Source: a virus. Taken from it: a DNA stretch of 32,080 nt. Each line of letters opens with the position of its first letter. The stretch's first letter is position 1. The notes below the pieces were generated by a model. The model was not told where the DNA came from, did not search any database, and was given only the letters and a program-made list of their open reading frames with translations. Location: positions 1 to 32,080 of the IMG/VR virus record IMGVR_UViG_3300042472_000688. One strand, 5' to 3'. Positions 1,815 through 32,080 of the stretch are shown in pieces. The position numbers and the translations under genes are program-made.

Positions 1815-1842
1815 TTGTGTGTTTTTAGTGTTATTAATAGTG

Positions 1843-1903: not shown

Positions 1904-2647
1904 TCATTTTATATTAAGACTTTTGAGGTCGATGTCAACCATATCTTCATTGCCTTTGTATGTGCCTTGCTTAACTTCCGGGAAGTATTTTTGCAAAACT
2001 TTGATTGTTTCTACACCAATTTTGTTTCTGTTTATGGATTGAAGTCCACCACCATTTTTGTAACAAACTGCATCTTCGTATGATCCTGTGTACGTTAGTG
2101 TTTTTTTACCAATTCTTAAGATTTCAAGTGCAAAGTAAACATCATCGTACAATTCTATTCCTTCCGGCATTGCCATTACTTTTGCTCTCAATAAGTAATT
2201 TCCATACAATGCTTTGTTCTCCCTTGTGAATACTAAATCTTTGCTTCTTATGTGTGCCATTGGTTTACTAACTGACAATCCATAAAGGTTTTCATCTTCT
2301 ATGAATCTTTGAACAATTTTTGTGTGTGTTTCTTGATAAACTTTGGCACAATCTGCTCTCTTTGACATTCCTAATTTTTTGAAGGACATATCATCATCAA
2401 TCTTATGGACCAAATCATATCCATTTTCTATTGCGTACTGACCAATTGCATTAATTGTTTCTCTGAAAGTGTTAACATTGATACGAACAAGGTGTTCTGC
2501 AGGAATTACTTGCGAGTAGAATATAAACTGCTCTTCTCGAACAAATACTTTCCAATCTATGTCAATCAGTTCTTTTAACCAATAACCACATTTCTTTTCT
2601 ATTTCATACGGTCTGTTGTATGAAGGTATTGCTACAAGTACTTTCAT
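1904..2647 (-). CDS. GT-A-type glycosyltransferase (second of a pair)
   Basis: A 247-residue protein with the layout of a GT-A nucleotide-sugar transferase. It has a short strand plus IPSYNRP at residues 7-13, a central acidic metal-binding motif HKIDDDMSF at 81-89, and a later acidic motif LYDDVYFALE at 166-175. The same three-part layout is seen in the upstream gene, although overall identity is low, so the two look like diverged partners. ATG 2647 follows the upstream stop as TGATG. Placement after a ParB-like protein recalls phage gene clusters with TET-associated-type glycosyltransferases that modify DNA bases. The acceptor (DNA base, protein or surface sugar) cannot be told from sequence. 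It is the last gene of the unit that starts at P2. Confidence 0.6.
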   Translation of the reverse strand: MKVLVAIPSYNRPYEIEKKCGYWLKELIDIDWKVFVREEQFIFYSQVIPAEHLVRINVNTFRETINAIGQYAIENGYDLVHKIDDDMSFKKLGMSKRADCAKVYQETHTKIVQRFIEDENLYGLSVSKPMAHIRSKDLVFTRENKALYGNYLLRAKVMAMPEGIELYDDVYFALEILRIGKKTLTYTGSYEDAVCYKNGGGLQSINRNKIGVETIKVLQKYFPEVKQGTYKGNEDMVDIDLKSLNIK

Positions 2648-3387
2648 CAAAATGGAAATGACAAGGAACGCTCTCCTTCGTTAATATTCTTTCTTTGAAT
2701 GTTGGCAGTCTTAATACTTACTGCTTCTCCAAACATTTCTCTCAACATCAATGTGTTCTTTTTCATTGAATCTGTGTTTCTGTCTAATGAACAACCACCA
2801 TCACTTTTGAAGTTGGCAGTAGTAAAAAATCCATATCTATCATTAATTAACATATATCTATTCTTGAATACGTTGTATAACGAAGCAAAGTGGTCTTCTC
2901 CTTCATTCATTCTTTCATCATACTTGATTTGATGTCCTTTCAAAAATCCACAATGTGATGCGTTTAAAAATCCTGTCATTCTAAATGGTTTCTGCGAGTG
3001 ATAACAAACAGGTTGTCGAAGGTGTGTGAAGCCAAACATTTTTGCATCCATCTGTCTTGCCAAACTTGCAGTCTGCATTATGATGTCTTTTACGTGTTCT
3101 TTACTATTTACTTTGAATTCTTCTCCACTACTTGCAAAAAATCTTCCAACGTGAGTAACATCATCGTCTAACATAAACACTTCTTCAAATGTATTGAGGA
3201 CAAACTGCCTTGCCTTTACTATGTTGTTTACTCCATCCGGTTGTGCAATGATTTCAATCTTTGGGTTGTACTTCTTGTAGTCATCAACTTCATTCTTTGG
3301 ACAAACTATTGCATCAATCTTTACTACGTTCTTTGTAGTAACCCTTGCCGGTCTTCCTTTACTTAATACTACTATTTTGAGTTCCAT
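2647..3387 (-). CDS. GT-A-type glycosyltransferase (first of a pair)
   Basis: A 246-residue protein with N-terminal VLSKGRPAR (residues 7-15), a DxD-type motif FMLDDDV at 71-77 and an acidic MNEGEDHFAS at 160-169, the expected order for a GT-A fold. It resembles the TET-associated glycosyltransferase family best known from phage DNA-modification clusters, but no TET/JBP dioxygenase or base-modifying enzyme is present here. The start overlaps the end of the ParB-like gene by 16 bases and its stop touches the start of the second glycosyltransferase, so all three are translationally linked. The substrate is unknown. Confidence 0.6.
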   Translation of the reverse strand: MELKIVVLSKGRPARVTTKNVVKIDAIVCPKNEVDDYKKYNPKIEIIAQPDGVNNIVKARQFVLNTFEEVFMLDDDVTHVGRFFASSGEEFKVNSKEHVKDIIMQTASLARQMDAKMFGFTHLRQPVCYHSQKPFRMTGFLNASHCGFLKGHQIKYDERMNEGEDHFASLYNVFKNRYMLINDRYGFFTTANFKSDGGCSLDRNTDSMKKNTLMLREMFGEAVSIKTANIQRKNINEGERSLSFPF

Positions 3388-4031
3388 TTTGTGTATAGTT
3401 CTTGAAATTTCTTAATTGTGATAACTCTACCTTCTCCAATGTAATTACTATTGTAATCTTTCTCTCTTTCAACTTCCAATACATTTTTTAACCAAGTGAA
3501 GTCCATTTCTGATGTTGCAAATATCATTACAAAATCATACTTTTCATTAAACTTTGGTGTTATTGGGTAAACAGGATTGTTTTCGTCAATATCGTTGAAT
3601 TCTTGTTCAAAGTCTGTGTACAAAGTTGGCAAGTCTTTGTTAGCAAATCCGATTGTTAATAACAAATCTCTATCTACCAATTCATTAACCAATTCCATAT
3701 CAAACTCTCCACCATTTTTGTTCCAACGAAGGTTCATTTCTTTTTCATCCTGCAGATTAACATATTCGTATGTAACAGGTACTTTTTCAAATCCAAGAGA
3801 CTTTGCAACATTGAATCGTTGGTGTCCACTAATCAAAACATTCTCTCTTCCGGGAAACGAGTTGACTTTTAATGGTTCTCTCAATCCAAACTTTGTGATA
3901 CTGTCAATTAACTCCTTCTTTTGTTTTGGATTAATCTTTCGTGGGTTGTACTCACTTTCAATTAGGTCATCTACGTTTACGTAGTGGATTTTCAATTCTT
4001 TTTCCTGTACTGATTCTACTTCTTTTTTCAT
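3372..4031 (-). CDS. ParB-like N-terminal-domain protein
   Basis: A 219-residue protein with a ParB/Srx-type domain at residues 15-90. The signature motifs are ESEYNPRKI (26-33) and LISGHQRF (66-73); the family binds CTP, and some members are nucleases or kinases. The remaining 120 residues form a second domain typical of phage ParB-like proteins, not a ParB helix-turn-helix. No ParA is present, so plasmid partition is unlikely. The ATG at 4031 was chosen because it makes a 4-base ATGA overlap with the upstream gene; an earlier in-frame start would overlap more. It lies directly before two glycosyltransferases, an arrangement that suggests a joint job, perhaps DNA modification (inference). 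Confidence 0.8.
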   Translation of the reverse strand: MKKEVESVQEKELKIHYVNVDDLIESEYNPRKINPKQKKELIDSITKFGLREPLKVNSFPGRENVLISGHQRFNVAKSLGFEKVPVTYEYVNLQDEKEMNLRWNKNGGEFDMELVNELVDRDLLLTIGFANKDLPTLYTDFEQEFNDIDENNPVYPITPKFNEKYDFVMIFATSEMDFTWLKNVLEVEREKDYNSNYIGEGRVITIKKFQELYTKWNSK

Positions 4032-4423
4032 ACTGCTATTAGGTTTTTTAATGATAACGTGATACAATTTAATACTTCTTCTGCTTTATCTTCTGTGTCT
4101 ATGGTCTCAACCAATTTAATCAACAGGTACTTTGGACTTACTCCTTGCAATATGCAATCTCTAAAGTCTTCCAAGTCTTTTCTTCTGTGTCTAACTTCTT
4201 CAAATAGTTTGACATTGTAGTGTACTGTTGAATGGTCGTATTTCTTTCCATTTGCGTTGAAAATATCTCTAATAGTATATAGGGTATATTTCAAGTCGTT
4301 TCGCAGTATAAAACAATATAATGCACGTGCATCTACGTTTTGAGTTGTTCTCACATTGTCAAATATATTCACATTCAAGTGCTTATTTATTTGCTCTGCT
4401 ATTCCTTCGTGTTTTTCATTCAT
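4028..4423 (-). CDS. DnaA domain-IV-like DNA-binding protein
   Basis: A 131-residue protein whose middle (about residues 33-80) resembles the origin-binding domain IV of DnaA: an initial R-x-L-Y-C helix, then a turn and KKYDHSTVHYNVKLF, which matches the DHSTV signature that contacts the DnaA box. There is no AAA+ domain. It could mark the phage origin or bind host DnaA sites (inference). The start is coupled to the exonuclease stop as TAATG, and the stop is coupled to ParB as ATGA, so the three are translated together. Confidence 0.6.
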   Translation of the reverse strand: MNEKHEGIAEQINKHLNVNIFDNVRTTQNVDARALYCFILRNDLKYTLYTIRDIFNANGKKYDHSTVHYNVKLFEEVRHRRKDLEDFRDCILQGVSPKYLLIKLVETIDTEDKAEEVLNCITLSLKNLIAV

Positions 4424-5459: not shown

Positions 5460-5710
5460 TTTTTCTTGTTTTTAGTGTTATACATTTTTTGAGACATAAA
5501 TTTTTCTGTAATTTTATGAATGAAATCTACTTCTATTGCTATTGGCAATCCAAGTTCTTCTGCAGTTCTAATTTCATCGAATGATTCAATCATTGATTCA
5601 CTACCATCATCGTGCAAGATAAACATATCAAAATATTCTAATGAATAAAGTGTTTCGGCTTTGTAGGCAGGTATTACCAACCAAACAAAATTGTGTCTAA
5701 TCTCTACCAT
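5456..5710 (-). CDS. Hypothetical protein, 84 aa
   Basis: Not recognised. It begins with MVEIRHNFVWLVIPA and has an acidic middle and a lysine-rich tail. Its last codons (N-T-K-N-K-K-K) also spell the CACTAAAAAC leader used by the next gene. The ATG at 5710 is coupled to the upstream stop as TAATG. Confidence 0.6.
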   Translation of the reverse strand: MVEIRHNFVWLVIPAYKAETLYSLEYFDMFILHDDGSESMIESFDEIRTAEELGLPIAIEVDFIHKITEKFMSQKMYNTKNKKK

Positions 5711-5883: not shown

Positions 5884-5901
5884 AATTTTTGTTTTTAGTG
5901 G

Positions 5902-6525: not shown

Positions 6526-6549
6526 AATTGTGTTTTTAGTGGTTATTGA

Positions 6550-6720: not shown

Positions 6721-6737
6721 TTTTAGTGTTTTTGTGA

Positions 6738-6968
6738 TTAATTTTTTCTGCCTAATTTAGTATTGAATCCAAAAAATGAAAACAAATGTGGTTGGAAGGT
6801 GTGCATAAAATAACCGGCAGTACTTCTGCTTTCAAATAATTCACAAACCTTGAATTTAATTCCATCTACATTTAGAATAAAACCAACTTCTCTTTCAAAT
6901 TTAGATTCCATTACTTGAATTGATAAATCGTTTTCTTGAATTGCGATAAAATGTTTTGATGATTCCAT
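6738..6968 (-). CDS. Hypothetical protein, 76 aa
   Basis: First gene of the unit driven by P2 (7000-7041). It is preceded by the leader CACTAAAAAT (6987-6978), with 9 bases to the ATG. The 76-residue protein is soluble with alternating strands; no family recognised. Confidence 0.6.
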   Translation of the reverse strand: MESSKHFIAIQENDLSIQVMESKFEREVGFILNVDGIKFKVCELFESRSTAGYFMHTFQPHLFSFFGFNTKLGRKN

Positions 6969-6999
6969 AACTTTATAATTTTTAGTGATTAATAAAGTC

Positions 7000-9462: not shown

Positions 9463-10454
9463 TATAAGAAGTTTAATTGACTTTCCTTAATCGTTCTTAA
9501 AATGGATTTACCATTCATTGAAAATCCAACATTGTTTTGCAATGCAACTAACCTAATTGGATTGTCAATACTTGTCGTTCTGCCACCGGTTTCAATTTCT
9601 TTTACTTTCCTAACGTGAATCATCGTAGTGGTGTAAAGTGTTTCGTGTCCTAAATACCTGTGGATTACGATAAAGTCATCTGCTCGGTTTACAAACTTAC
9701 CACCACCTTCTACATCACTTGCGTTTGGAGGTACTGCGTGTCTATGGAATTCGTGGTCAACAGAGTGTGTCATTCTCAATGCAGAAGTGTTTGCGTGTGT
9801 GTTCAACCACAAGGTTATTTTAGATTCTTTGCAAAACATTCTCATTTCTGTACAAGCCAAATAATCGTATTCGTGTCCACCTAATGATTTCATCAAATCT
9901 TGATTCTTTGTCAACGCATTATAGGGATCCAACAGTACTCCATTATAATTGAAGTCCTTTTTTACATTTTTGAATAATTCAATTGCACTTTGGTAGTCAT
10001 ACATTACTGAATTGTCAACAAACTTGAAATTTCTATTTATAAATTCACTATGCGTTTTGAAGTTTGCTTCTGACACTAAATTTATTGGTGTTTCGTCAAG
10101 AAATTCAATCAACTTGCGTATCAATGAATAACTGTCGTTTTCTGTTGAACAAATCAACCATTTCATATCGTGCTTTAGCGAATAACATAGCATCAAATAC
10201 AAAACAACTGTTGTCTTACCAACATTTGCGTGTCCAAGTACTATATTGAAGTTTGAAGTCTTAAATCTAAAATACTCGTCTAATTCGGGTATATCTAATT
10301 TGAGTGCTTCTTTAATTTTACCATTTCGTATATTTGAAATGATTTCGAGTTGCTTTTTATAATCTATTAGCATTTCATCGTCTTTAGTGGTTATGGAAGA
10401 TTGTCCGAGAACGGAGTTAGGCTCTCCAAACGCATATTTATTTATCTCGGACAT
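9462..10454 (-). CDS. DnaB-like replicative helicase, RecA-fold ATPase
   Basis: A 330-residue protein corresponding to the helicase core of DnaB/gp4-type enzymes. Walker A is GHANVGKTT at residues 74-82 and Walker B is VLLDPYN at 173-179, followed by a histidine-rich segment (WLNTHAN) where the sensor motif is expected. It lacks both the usual DnaB N-terminal domain and a primase domain, so it probably recruits host primase. The ATG at 10454 lies 13 bases after the upstream stop; a longer frame would need a TTG start at 10502 inside the SSB-tailed gene and was rejected. Confidence 0.8.
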   Translation of the reverse strand: MSEINKYAFGEPNSVLGQSSITTKDDEMLIDYKKQLEIISNIRNGKIKEALKLDIPELDEYFRFKTSNFNIVLGHANVGKTTVVLYLMLCYSLKHDMKWLICSTENDSYSLIRKLIEFLDETPINLVSEANFKTHSEFINRNFKFVDNSVMYDYQSAIELFKNVKKDFNYNGVLLDPYNALTKNQDLMKSLGGHEYDYLACTEMRMFCKESKITLWLNTHANTSALRMTHSVDHEFHRHAVPPNASDVEGGGKFVNRADDFIVIHRYLGHETLYTTTMIHVRKVKEIETGGRTTSIDNPIRLVALQNNVGFSMNGKSILRTIKESQLNFL

Positions 10455-11418: not shown

Positions 11419-11630
11419 TACTGTTTTTTTAGTGTGTAATTAAAGTGATTAATAAATTCGTAATATCCACTTATTTGATTTGATACAATGTGGGCATCGT
11501 GGACTTCTATACCCATTGTTAGCCTTTCTACTTCATCAAGCAGTCGGGAGTTCTCAATTCGCAACGCTTCGTTGCTCTGACTTAAATAATTGACCAATTC
11601 TTTGGTACTCCAATTTTCATTGTCTTTCAT
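11418..11630 (-). CDS. Hypothetical coiled-coil protein, 70 aa
   Basis: A 70-residue protein with a heptad-like helix at about residues 14-42 (LSQSNEALRIENSRLLDEVE and on). It carries the leader CACTAAAAAAC (11648-11638), 7 bases before ATG 11630. Function unknown; it is co-transcribed with ERF. Confidence 0.6.
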   Translation of the reverse strand: MKDNENWSTKELVNYLSQSNEALRIENSRLLDEVERLTMGIEVHDAHIVSNQISGYYEFINHFNYTLKKQ

Positions 11631-11649
11631 AATTTTTGTTTTTTAGTGT

Positions 11650-12849: not shown

Positions 12850-12865
12850 TTTTAGTGGGTTTTGA

Positions 12866-13060: not shown

Positions 13061-13089
13061 TTTTTGTGTTTTTAGTGATTATTGAATAG

Positions 13090-13146: not shown

Positions 13147-13177
13147 AAAAAAAACCCGAAACGCTTGGCGAATCGGG
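13147..13177 (-). terminator. Intrinsic terminator of the small RNA / late region
   Basis: On the minus strand CCCGA pairs with TCGGG and an inner CGC with GCG around a CAA loop, followed by eight T (13154-13147). It separates the late region and the small RNA from promoter P3. Confidence 0.8.
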
Positions 13178-13238
13178 ATTTTTCAAGTTCCACTAAAAAC
13201 TTTGTTATGAAGGTTGCAAAAAAAAGGCGATTAAATTG
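13147..13238 (-). ncRNA. Candidate small regulatory RNA, about 90 nt, antisense to the early-gene leader
   Basis: Between a near-perfect Bacteroidetes promoter (13274-13244) and an intrinsic terminator (13177-13147) lies a short transcript with no ATG on the minus strand. Bases 13202-13185 can fold as AAGUU-UUUAGUGG-AACUU. The 8-base loop is the exact complement of CCACUAAA, the leader found just before thirteen early and middle genes; the match extends to 11 bases (13200-13190) for three of them. A CAUAA just 5' of this stretch could also pair with UUAUG at a start codon. Seen: promoter, hairpin, complementarity, terminator. Inferred: that it is transcribed and represses early translation. 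The alternative is a plus-strand leader and a 25-codon frame in the same place. Confidence 0.55.
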
Positions 13239-13243
13239 CAGGA

Positions 13244-13274
13244 CAAATATACGACTTATTTGTTATCTGCCAAA
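13244..13274 (-). promoter_or_regulatory. Promoter of the candidate small RNA
   Basis: TTTG (13274-13271), a 19-base spacer, then TATATTTG (13251-13244) on the minus strand. This matches the Bacteroidetes consensus TTTG-N19-TAnnTTTG exactly. It lies across the last codons of the NinG-like gene, and there is no coding start between it and the terminator, so its product should be a short RNA. Confidence 0.65.
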
Positions 13275-13687
13275 TTTTTATTAACTGATTTGTAATATTC
13301 TATTTTTTCTTCCAATTCAAAGTCTTTAAATTTTGATGCTGATTTGGATTTGATTAACAAACCTTCTGCAGTTCCTTCTCCGTGTATCTGATTCAAATAT
13401 ACTCCAAACTTATACTGTTCTCCGTACTTCATTACATTACAAGCGTAACATTGTACTTGACAATTTGTTTCATCCCAACGTGTTGAGTAATGCTTTCTTG
13501 ACATAAAATGACCACATTGCAATTGCTTCCAATCGTCAACTTTATCACAAGTGAAGCAACTTGCTTGATTTCCTATTGCGTATCTACTTCTAACATAAAT
13601 GCTAAATTCAGTATCAAGTTTTTTGACTAACGATGTTCTGCTAACTTTTCTTTTTGCAGGTGTTTTTGGGTGTGATTTCAATGCCAT
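13256..13687 (-). CDS. ninG: NinG/Rap-like recombination endonuclease
   Basis: A 143-residue zinc-binding nuclease of the NinG (Rap) family. C44-x-x-C47 and C80-x-x-C83 bracket the signature CGHFMSR (58-64) and the TRWDETN segment (69-75). It has a basic N-terminus, as in the lambda protein. NinG/Rap stimulates strand exchange and cuts branched DNA. It follows the AT-rich gap and precedes the small RNA, away from the other recombination genes, which is slightly unusual. No promoter could be called with confidence upstream. Confidence 0.8.
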   Translation of the reverse strand: MALKSHPKTPAKRKVSRTSLVKKLDTEFSIYVRSRYAIGNQASCFTCDKVDDWKQLQCGHFMSRKHYSTRWDETNCQVQCYACNVMKYGEQYKFGVYLNQIHGEGTAEGLLIKSKSASKFKDFELEEKIEYYKSVNKNLADNK

Positions 13688-31088: not shown

Positions 31089-31111
31089 AATTTCTAATTT
31101 TAGTGTTAATG

Positions 31112-31372: not shown

Positions 31373-31390
31373 AATTTGTGTTTTTAGTGG

Positions 31391-31507: not shown

Positions 31508-31533
31508 TTTTAGTGTTTTTGATTATTGTTCAG

Positions 31534-31594: not shown

Positions 31595-32080
31595 TTATCG
31601 TACTGCATACTTACCATAGTTCGGTCTGCTTAACTTATTCAATACAGAGTAACGCAAAGCATCCAAACTGTGATTGAATTTGTCTTCCGGCTTGTTTGTG
31701 AGGTTTCCATTCTTGTCTTCTATGAACTTGTAGTTACGCATTTCTTTGATGACATTTAAGGAAGTGTCCAATACTATTAATTTGTATCTACGCAGGATGT
31801 CAATACCTAAATTTATTTCTCCCTTGTACGTACTTTTAGTGTTCCACCCTAACCTGTGCAACTCTTCTACTGATTTGGGTTCTGCACTATCGCAAAAGAT
31901 TTCGTCTCTTCTGTCTAATCCAAGTGATCCAAAGTGGTCGGCAATGTCCGAGTTGGTCATATTCGTTCTGTACAACAACTCCTTGATGTAAATGCTATCT
32001 CCAAGCAAATATGAAGCTACCATTGAGGTTGCATCATTCGTGAAACCAAAATCCAATCCATACGAAATTAGTTTGGCTTG
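31595..32080 (-). CDS. terL: Terminase large subunit, C-terminal part (split by the window ends)
   Basis: RNase H-fold nuclease half of the terminase, which cuts concatemeric DNA during packaging. Visible acidic motifs in order are GLDFGF (first metal-binding Asp), CDSAEP (second) and DKFNHSLDALRY (third, near the C-terminus). The frame is open to the right edge of the window because the bases from 31954 on repeat the left edge. Joined to the part at 1-805 it makes one 387-residue protein. The stop at 31595 is followed closely by the promoter of the next unit (31534-31584), with no clear terminator hairpin between. Confidence 0.95.
   Translation of the reverse strand, partial: QAKLISYGLDFGFTNDATSMVASYLLGDSIYIKELLYRTNMTNSDIADHFGSLGLDRRDEIFCDSAEPKSVEELHRLGWNTKSTYKGEINLGIDILRRYKLIVLDTSLNVIKEMRNYKFIEDKNGNLTNKPEDKFNHSLDALRYSVLNKLSRPNYGKYAVR
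31954..32080. repeat. Terminal overlap, copy 2 (identical to 1-127)
   Basis: Second copy of the 127-base exact direct repeat. It lies inside the large terminase coding sequence in the same frame as copy 1, so removing one copy restores a single intact gene. Confidence 0.9.

Follow-up and report, generated by a model that had tools for sequence, protein, structure and literature searches.

A candidate phage small RNA whose hairpin seed is complementary to, and has co-evolved with, a leader shared by early genes

The DNA analysed here, referred to as the window, is the whole of record IMGVR_UViG_3300042472_000688 (32,080 nt). Because it carries an exact 127-bp terminal direct repeat (1-127 and 31954-32080), we think it very likely that the genome is complete and circularly closed, at ~31.95 kb (~31,953 bp), though the record is classed as linear. 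The minus strand carries nearly all of the genes, in an order that starts with TerL, three small genes, a block of tail, head and portal genes, the endolysin gene, ninG (13687-13256) and the candidate RNA, and continues after the RNA with replication and recombination genes (Erf, replicative helicase, exonuclease and many small genes) and TerS. The phage is apparently lytic; no integrase, repressor or antirepressor was hit in PHROG or Pfam among the proteins scanned. The host is probably a member of the Bacteroidetes, as suggested by the TAnnTTTG promoters and the A-rich leaders without Shine-Dalgarno sites, both of which are established traits of the Bacteroidetes (PMC6847099). Two adjacent proteins (1904-2650 and 2647-3387) both match the beta-glucosyl-HMC-alpha-glucosyltransferase family (phrog_842), a pair (1904-3387) that suggests modified DNA or other sugar transfer, and the early region also encodes a ParB-like nuclease/methyltransferase-type protein (3372-4067). 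A motif, ACGTTATA, is found upstream of structural genes on the minus strand of the window (30366, 22439, 20919 and 18666) and in relatives too; it resembles CGTTAATA, found before late genes of Nonlabens phage P12024S, and is a candidate late promoter of non-host type.

The features of the RNA locus, which directly follows ninG, are as follows.

13256..13687, minus strand: gene for the ninG/Rap junction endonuclease (phrog_5034, E 1.3e-24), the conserved upstream neighbour of the RNA
13244..13274, minus strand: host-type (Bacteroidetes sigma) promoter, TTTG-N19-TATATTTG, overlapping the end of ninG; relatives have one of this type in the corresponding position
13147..13240, minus strand: predicted small RNA transcript of ~92-94 nt, start estimated; conserved after ninG in relatives
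13205..13209, minus strand: CAUAA, the complement of UUAUG at the start codons of several targets; kept in most relatives
13185..13202, minus strand: seed hairpin AAGUUU-UUAGUG-GAACUU; stem covariation 0.656 versus 0.261 shuffled
13147..13177, minus strand: intrinsic terminator, CCCGA...UCGGG, U8; 7/7 stem pairs doubly changed among 16 relatives

Every element of the locus described in the original prediction was found where it had been placed. The promoter, TTG-N19-TATATTTG (13273-13244, minus strand), is one of only two exact matches to TTG-N17-21-TAnnTTTG on the coding strand, and the terminator stem occupies 13177-13155, with a U-tract that runs to 13147. In the hairpin GUUUUUAGUGG, which corresponds to the DNA AAGTTTTTAGTGGAACTT at 13202-13185, the loop and the 5' arm are complementary to CCACUAAAAAC, the leader found before start codons. 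The loop had been described as eight bases long and as the complement of the leader; the complementarity held but the size did not: a U-G pair closes the loop, leaving six conserved bases, UUAGUG, in nearly all relatives. Rfam covariance models gave no matches in the window at gathering score, and comparison of relatives revealed no conserved ORF at the RNA locus.

The sequence CCACTAAA is present seven times in the window, against an expectation of 1.06, and none of 100 shuffles reached seven. Of the shorter CACTAAA, the coding strand has 16 copies, 14 of them shortly before a start ATG (listed below) and two within genes (31841 and 30317), and the other strand has four, one of which is the RNA locus.

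31509..31515, minus strand: CACTAAA, gene starting 31507
31383..31390, minus strand: CCACTAAA(AAC), gene 31372
31099..31105, minus strand: CACTAAA, gene starting 31088
13071..13077, minus strand: CACTAAA(AAC), gene 13060, the first gene after the RNA
12851..12858, minus strand: CCACTAAA, gene starting 12849
11642..11648, minus strand: CACTAAA, gene 11630
11428..11434, minus strand: CACTAAA, Erf-like annealing protein gene 11418
10383..10390, minus strand: CCACTAAA, replicative helicase gene (true start 10378)
6981..6987, minus strand: CACTAAA, gene 6968
6722..6728, minus strand: CACTAAA, gene 6720
6535..6542, minus strand: CCACTAAA(AAC), gene 6525
5894..5901, minus strand: CCACTAAA(AAC), gene 5883
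5471..5477, minus strand: CACTAAA(AAC), gene 5459
1824..1830, minus strand: CACTAAA(AAC), gene 1814 (MgsA_C domain)

Thirteen early genes had been credited with the leader; their leaders are real, but the count is 14, the last being that of the replicative helicase, whose start was placed by ortholog alignment at the ATG at 10378 and not at that of the longer mechanical ORF. The 11-base matches claimed before genes 5883, 6525 and 31372 proved exact and, as judged from the CACTAAA sites of the window, it is also correct that no structural gene has the leader. When the RNA-leader pairing prediction that had been called for was run, early genes scored above late genes (p=0.0018), but the separation was only moderate, with overlap: genes with the leader lay near the top (duplex energies of -20.8, -19.7 and -18.8 kcal/mol for genes 6525, 5883 and 31372, respectively), and a few late genes scored well, one of them at -15.1 kcal/mol. 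Among 15 phages with the TTTAGTG RNA core (type T1, defined below), CACTAAA lies 7-12 nt from the ATG in 79/90 leaders, and a promoter-like TAnnTTTG is present no more than 40 nt upstream in only 21/90 sites. This tight spacing, together with the scarcity of promoter boxes, indicates that CACTAAA belongs to the start codon and not to promoters.

Relatives were collected via NinG and via the helicase. In the nearest NinG relatives (L003-L009) the RNA lies directly after ninG, complete with promoter, TTTAGTG core and terminator, and the helicase set yielded it at 20 loci, among them every one of the six that lack the TTTAGTG core and were long enough for checking. Among 16 aligned RNAs, each of the seven pairs of the terminator stem is changed on both sides. 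The seed hairpin, as the named 6-bp stem around UUAGUG, has 88% standard pairs, and none of 500 shuffles showed covariation as high as its own (0.656, with 0.261 in shuffles and at most 0.226 in slid controls), a pattern which, so far as alignments can tell, is that of a real structured RNA. Conservation of promoter, loop and terminator in related phages, with loop and leader covarying, had been put forward as a test of the RNA, and it was passed in several ways, both here and in the comparisons of seed and leader that follow. Searches with 16-mer cores returned 104 stretches, only six of which had promoter and terminator, all of them already-known members; an exact 18-mer match (L083) sits within an ORF of 1092 aa and was rejected as chance. 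Neither the RNA nor the leader was found in Nonlabens phage P12024S, which among isolates has the most similar portal protein (34%), and in isolates with a distant ninG (Bacteroides BS-TP2, Riemerella RAP44 and Polaribacter P12002L) a coding gene and no RNA directly follows ninG. A NinG-profile pattern scan of 84,980 species genomes gave only three loci, none an evident prophage and all in metagenome-derived or single-cell-type assemblies; no isolate carrying the RNA was found.

The helicase set contains three types of RNA core, namely T1, TTTAGTG; T2, TTTGGTTAAAG (L143 and L150); and T3, TTTTTGTTTGAAAG (L144-L147). Within this helicase-linked clade, leaders with CACTAAA are present in 14/14 phages with the TTTAGTG core and in 0/4 of the others; they number from 2 to 13 per phage in T1 and are absent from those T2 and T3 phages that were counted, and leaders with AACCAAA number 4 and 3 in the T2 phages. 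Close relatives with a changed core thus have changed leaders, TTTGGTT being matched by AACCAAA and TTTTTGTTTG by leaders of the CAAACAAA type, and one leader of L143 has a 20-nt exact match to the phage's own RNA. In most T1 phages the helicase gene's own leader reads TCACTAAAAAC; its T2 counterpart is TTTAAACCAAAAC, and T3 has TTTAAACAAACAAAAC or something close to it, T3 being the type in which the match between RNA and leaders is less clean than in the other two. As L153 (T1, TTTAGTG core) and L146 (T3) are at zero distance in the helicase tree, seed and leader can change without any change in the gene. A finer correspondence concerns run lengths: within T1, RNAs with a T-run of 5 go with 23 A5 and 4 A4 leaders, and those with a T-run of 4 with 10 A5 and 36 A4 leaders (Fisher p 1.3e-7), with the reservation that the phages are related and the sites not independent.

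Co-variation of seed and leader extends to ninG-linked phages outside the clade, where the seed GTTTTAATGTT and the leader AACATTAAAAC match over as many as 16 nt and flanking bases co-change. Other ninG-linked pairs of seed and leader are GTTATCATT with AATGATAAC and GTTCTGTTTT with AAAACAGAAC, among others; the further ninG-linked RNA families number six, with different seeds that each match their own leaders. When seven seed families were compared, with one phage per family, own pairings averaged 63 and mismatched pairings 16, and none of 2000 mismatched sets was as good. Measured against T-matched windows of the same phage, 18/39 phages stood out at p<=0.01 and 26/39 at 0.05. Covariation of the CAUAA arm with UUAUG was not significant (p=0.22). 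No excess was seen in five of the 31 ninG-linked contigs tested (G004, G005, G008, G026 and G032). The contig of G005 ends at the RNA and that of G004 soon after it, and G005 and other short contigs are without most of the early region; G008, G026 and G032 are real exceptions, in which the locus is present with no exact leader match of nine or more, and may represent decayed or changed systems. The leader GTTTCACTTAAAAC of L009 (G007) is, by eye, one mismatch from the 14-nt complement GTTTCACTAAAAAC, and the exact-match score therefore understates this phage. In a large ninG-linked group (L010, L029, L036, L057 and others) the seed is approximately GTTCTGTTTT and the leaders are AAAACAGAAC, with some G-U pairs.

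A separate observation concerns six relatives in which the first gene after the RNA has a long, conserved 5' leader (~250 nt) that ends in a hammerhead-like motif, comprising CUGAUGA, stem II, GAAA and a stem I hairpin after a GUA/GUC cleavage site, with stem III closed by the CAC of the leader CACUAAAA. The type III-like motifs are located as follows.

L003, 6803-6858: hammerhead type III-like motif
L004, ~6770-6830: hammerhead type III-like motif
L005, 6770-6825: hammerhead type III-like motif
L154, 6416-6472: hammerhead type III-like motif
L157, 969-1025: hammerhead type III-like motif
L159, 5229-5285: hammerhead type III-like motif

A strict hammerhead scan of both strands of all loci (6.0 Mb, overlapping records included) found the motif only in these six relatives, and not in the window. 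All six motifs lie directly before the leader CACTAAAA, and their stems I and II are changed on both sides. Rfam Hammerhead_3 matches five of the six (E 1.3e-7 to 0.0017), under the gathering score of 48.5 bits; an Rfam search of L004 alone gave no hammerhead match. Since the target of the small RNA overlaps ribozyme stem III, binding of the RNA and cleavage may be mutually exclusive. Between promoter and ribozyme the sequence is conserved and looks structured (L003:6575-6800, L004:6560-6780 and L005:6565-6770); it is of two sequence types (L003/L154/L159 versus L004/L005/L157), which stand before different genes, and the Rfam searches made gave no match in it besides the ribozyme.

At the level of sequence, a trans-acting base-pairing small RNA should have its own promoter and intrinsic terminator, a conserved RNA structure, and a seed that is complementary to, and has co-evolved with, unlinked initiation regions, and the candidate meets each of these expectations. 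We consider it probable that the locus encodes a trans-acting antisense RNA of the phage that blocks translation initiation of a set of early genes with a shared leader. Transcription of the RNA would start at a host-type promoter of its own and stop at the intrinsic terminator, and the seed in its hairpin loop would pair with the shared leader CACUAAAAAC, which lies a few bases upstream of the AUG in ~14 early genes, among them those for the helicase and Erf and many small genes. The upstream CAUAA arm, predicted also to pair in some relatives, may cover the AUG. Such pairing would cover the translation initiation region, sometimes with the AUG, and block binding of the 30S subunit; synthesis of early proteins would be limited or ended, and the structural genes, without the leader, would stay free. 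Pairing is well supported by the co-evolved complementarity of RNA and leaders, a comparison of sequences only; expression of the RNA, pairing in trans, the 30S block, repression and timing are inferred, there being no expression data. A timed switch from early to late genes is only a guess because the promoter of the RNA looks host-type; this, with the different motif ACGTTATA near several structural genes, implies that the RNA is probably made from an early stage. A brake or feedforward limiter on early proteins, which would gain strength as copies of the phage genome accumulate, is no less likely than a timed late switch.

The covariation described above supports pairing but not its sign, and the RNA might pair with the leaders and act positively or neutrally, for example by shielding the 5' ends of early mRNAs or by setting mRNA stability. 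With a host-type promoter, the RNA is likely to be present while the early genes are needed, as such an action would have it; we nevertheless regard this as unlikely, given that the site lies a few bases before an AUG that the pairing can reach and that leaders so rich in A usually offer no structure to unmask. The joint differences of seed and leader between close relatives also recall the specificity of c4 in P1 versus P7 (PMC12197685), and would suit an RNA that acts mainly against the early genes of co- or superinfecting relatives, in a c4-like immunity with specificity groups set by seed changes. However, the lack of an integrase or repressor among the PHROG and Pfam hits of the scanned proteins and the mere three loci from the NinG-profile scan of 84,980 species genomes make a lysogen in need of immunity unlikely, and we hold out little hope for this explanation.

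It is very improbable that CACTAAA serves a phage transcription factor as a DNA operator, of which the RNA locus would be merely one reverse copy: four of the 14 window sites do follow a promoter-like TAnnTTTG or TAATATCTTTG, but a box lies within 40 nt of only 21/90 sites in the 15 phages, spacing to the AUG is tight, and an operator would leave unexplained the covarying stem, the terminator and the tracking of A-run by T-run. Equally little credence is due to the idea that ninG is simply followed, in a genome rich in AT, by an ordinary terminator with a T-rich spacer that matches A-rich leaders by chance; T-rich stretches match such leaders at a low background rate, but this does not account for own pairings that score 63 against 16 when mismatched, for the result with T-matched windows or for the lineages in which RNA and leader have switched together. 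Lastly, the reverse complement of the RNA resembles a leader and ATG (CCACTAAAAAC...ATG, MKVAKKRRLNCRTNIRLICYLPNFY), but a small plus-strand gene is barely conceivable and its peptide was ruled out by missing conservation, the relatives' peptides being unrelated and mostly of 3-18 codons (MSEY, MTEYRKYRT, MNNYY, MKK).

We class the antisense RNA proposed here among the trans-acting base-pairing RNAs, as a new variety in which one phage RNA and one tag serve a whole early regulon. The Hfq-class sRNAs of enterobacteria have a host-type promoter, a structured body, an intrinsic terminator and a short seed for several initiation regions. The candidate shares all of these with bacterial seed sRNAs, but it is phage-encoded and would be directed at the phage's own genes, each of which has a near-identical site, and no chaperone is known. 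Closest in substance are c4, sar, OOP and aQ, all of them single-target. The c4 (P1/P7) and sar (P22) antisense RNAs, encoded by phages, each keep translation of a phage gene from starting, and in c4 the complementary bases are believed to be in loops (PMC12197685); they have a single target (ant) and act in lysogeny and immunity of temperate phages, whereas here there are ~14 genes in an apparently lytic phage. The temperate phage and ant target of a c4-type RNA are not in evidence, without an integrase, repressor or antirepressor hit among the proteins scanned. Lambda OOP and aQ are likewise short phage antisense RNAs that control phage development (PMC12197685), but they are transcribed opposite a single target; a cis-antisense origin of this kind, as also in sar, does not apply here, the RNA and all of its targets being on the minus strand in separate places and joined by the leader. 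Closest in action, as a functional analogy only, would be T4 RegA, a protein competitor of the ribosome at ~30 initiation regions, which blocks a set of the phage's own mRNAs at and just before the AUG (PMC3014915). RegA is, however, a protein with a loose sequence preference, and the present system would have an RNA, an exact seed and a shared leader. We found no description of a phage RNA of such design in open-licence PMC; a description elsewhere is not excluded.

Taking the lineages together, there is in our judgement slightly more reason than not to see here a widespread class of phage riboregulator, a translational brake on early genes with private, co-evolving seed and leader codes for each lineage that can switch between phages whose core genes are almost the same; the brake may possibly also hit rivals with the same code. 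The seed and leader switches between close relatives are natural compensatory mutants, and the mechanism is therefore directly testable. Proteins such as T4 RegA are known to give a phage global post-transcriptional control over its early genes; if our interpretation is true, the same would be achieved by a compact regulon design with one small RNA, which genes join by gaining a ten-base tag, and it would show how translation initiation can be controlled by phages whose hosts make no use of Shine-Dalgarno sites.
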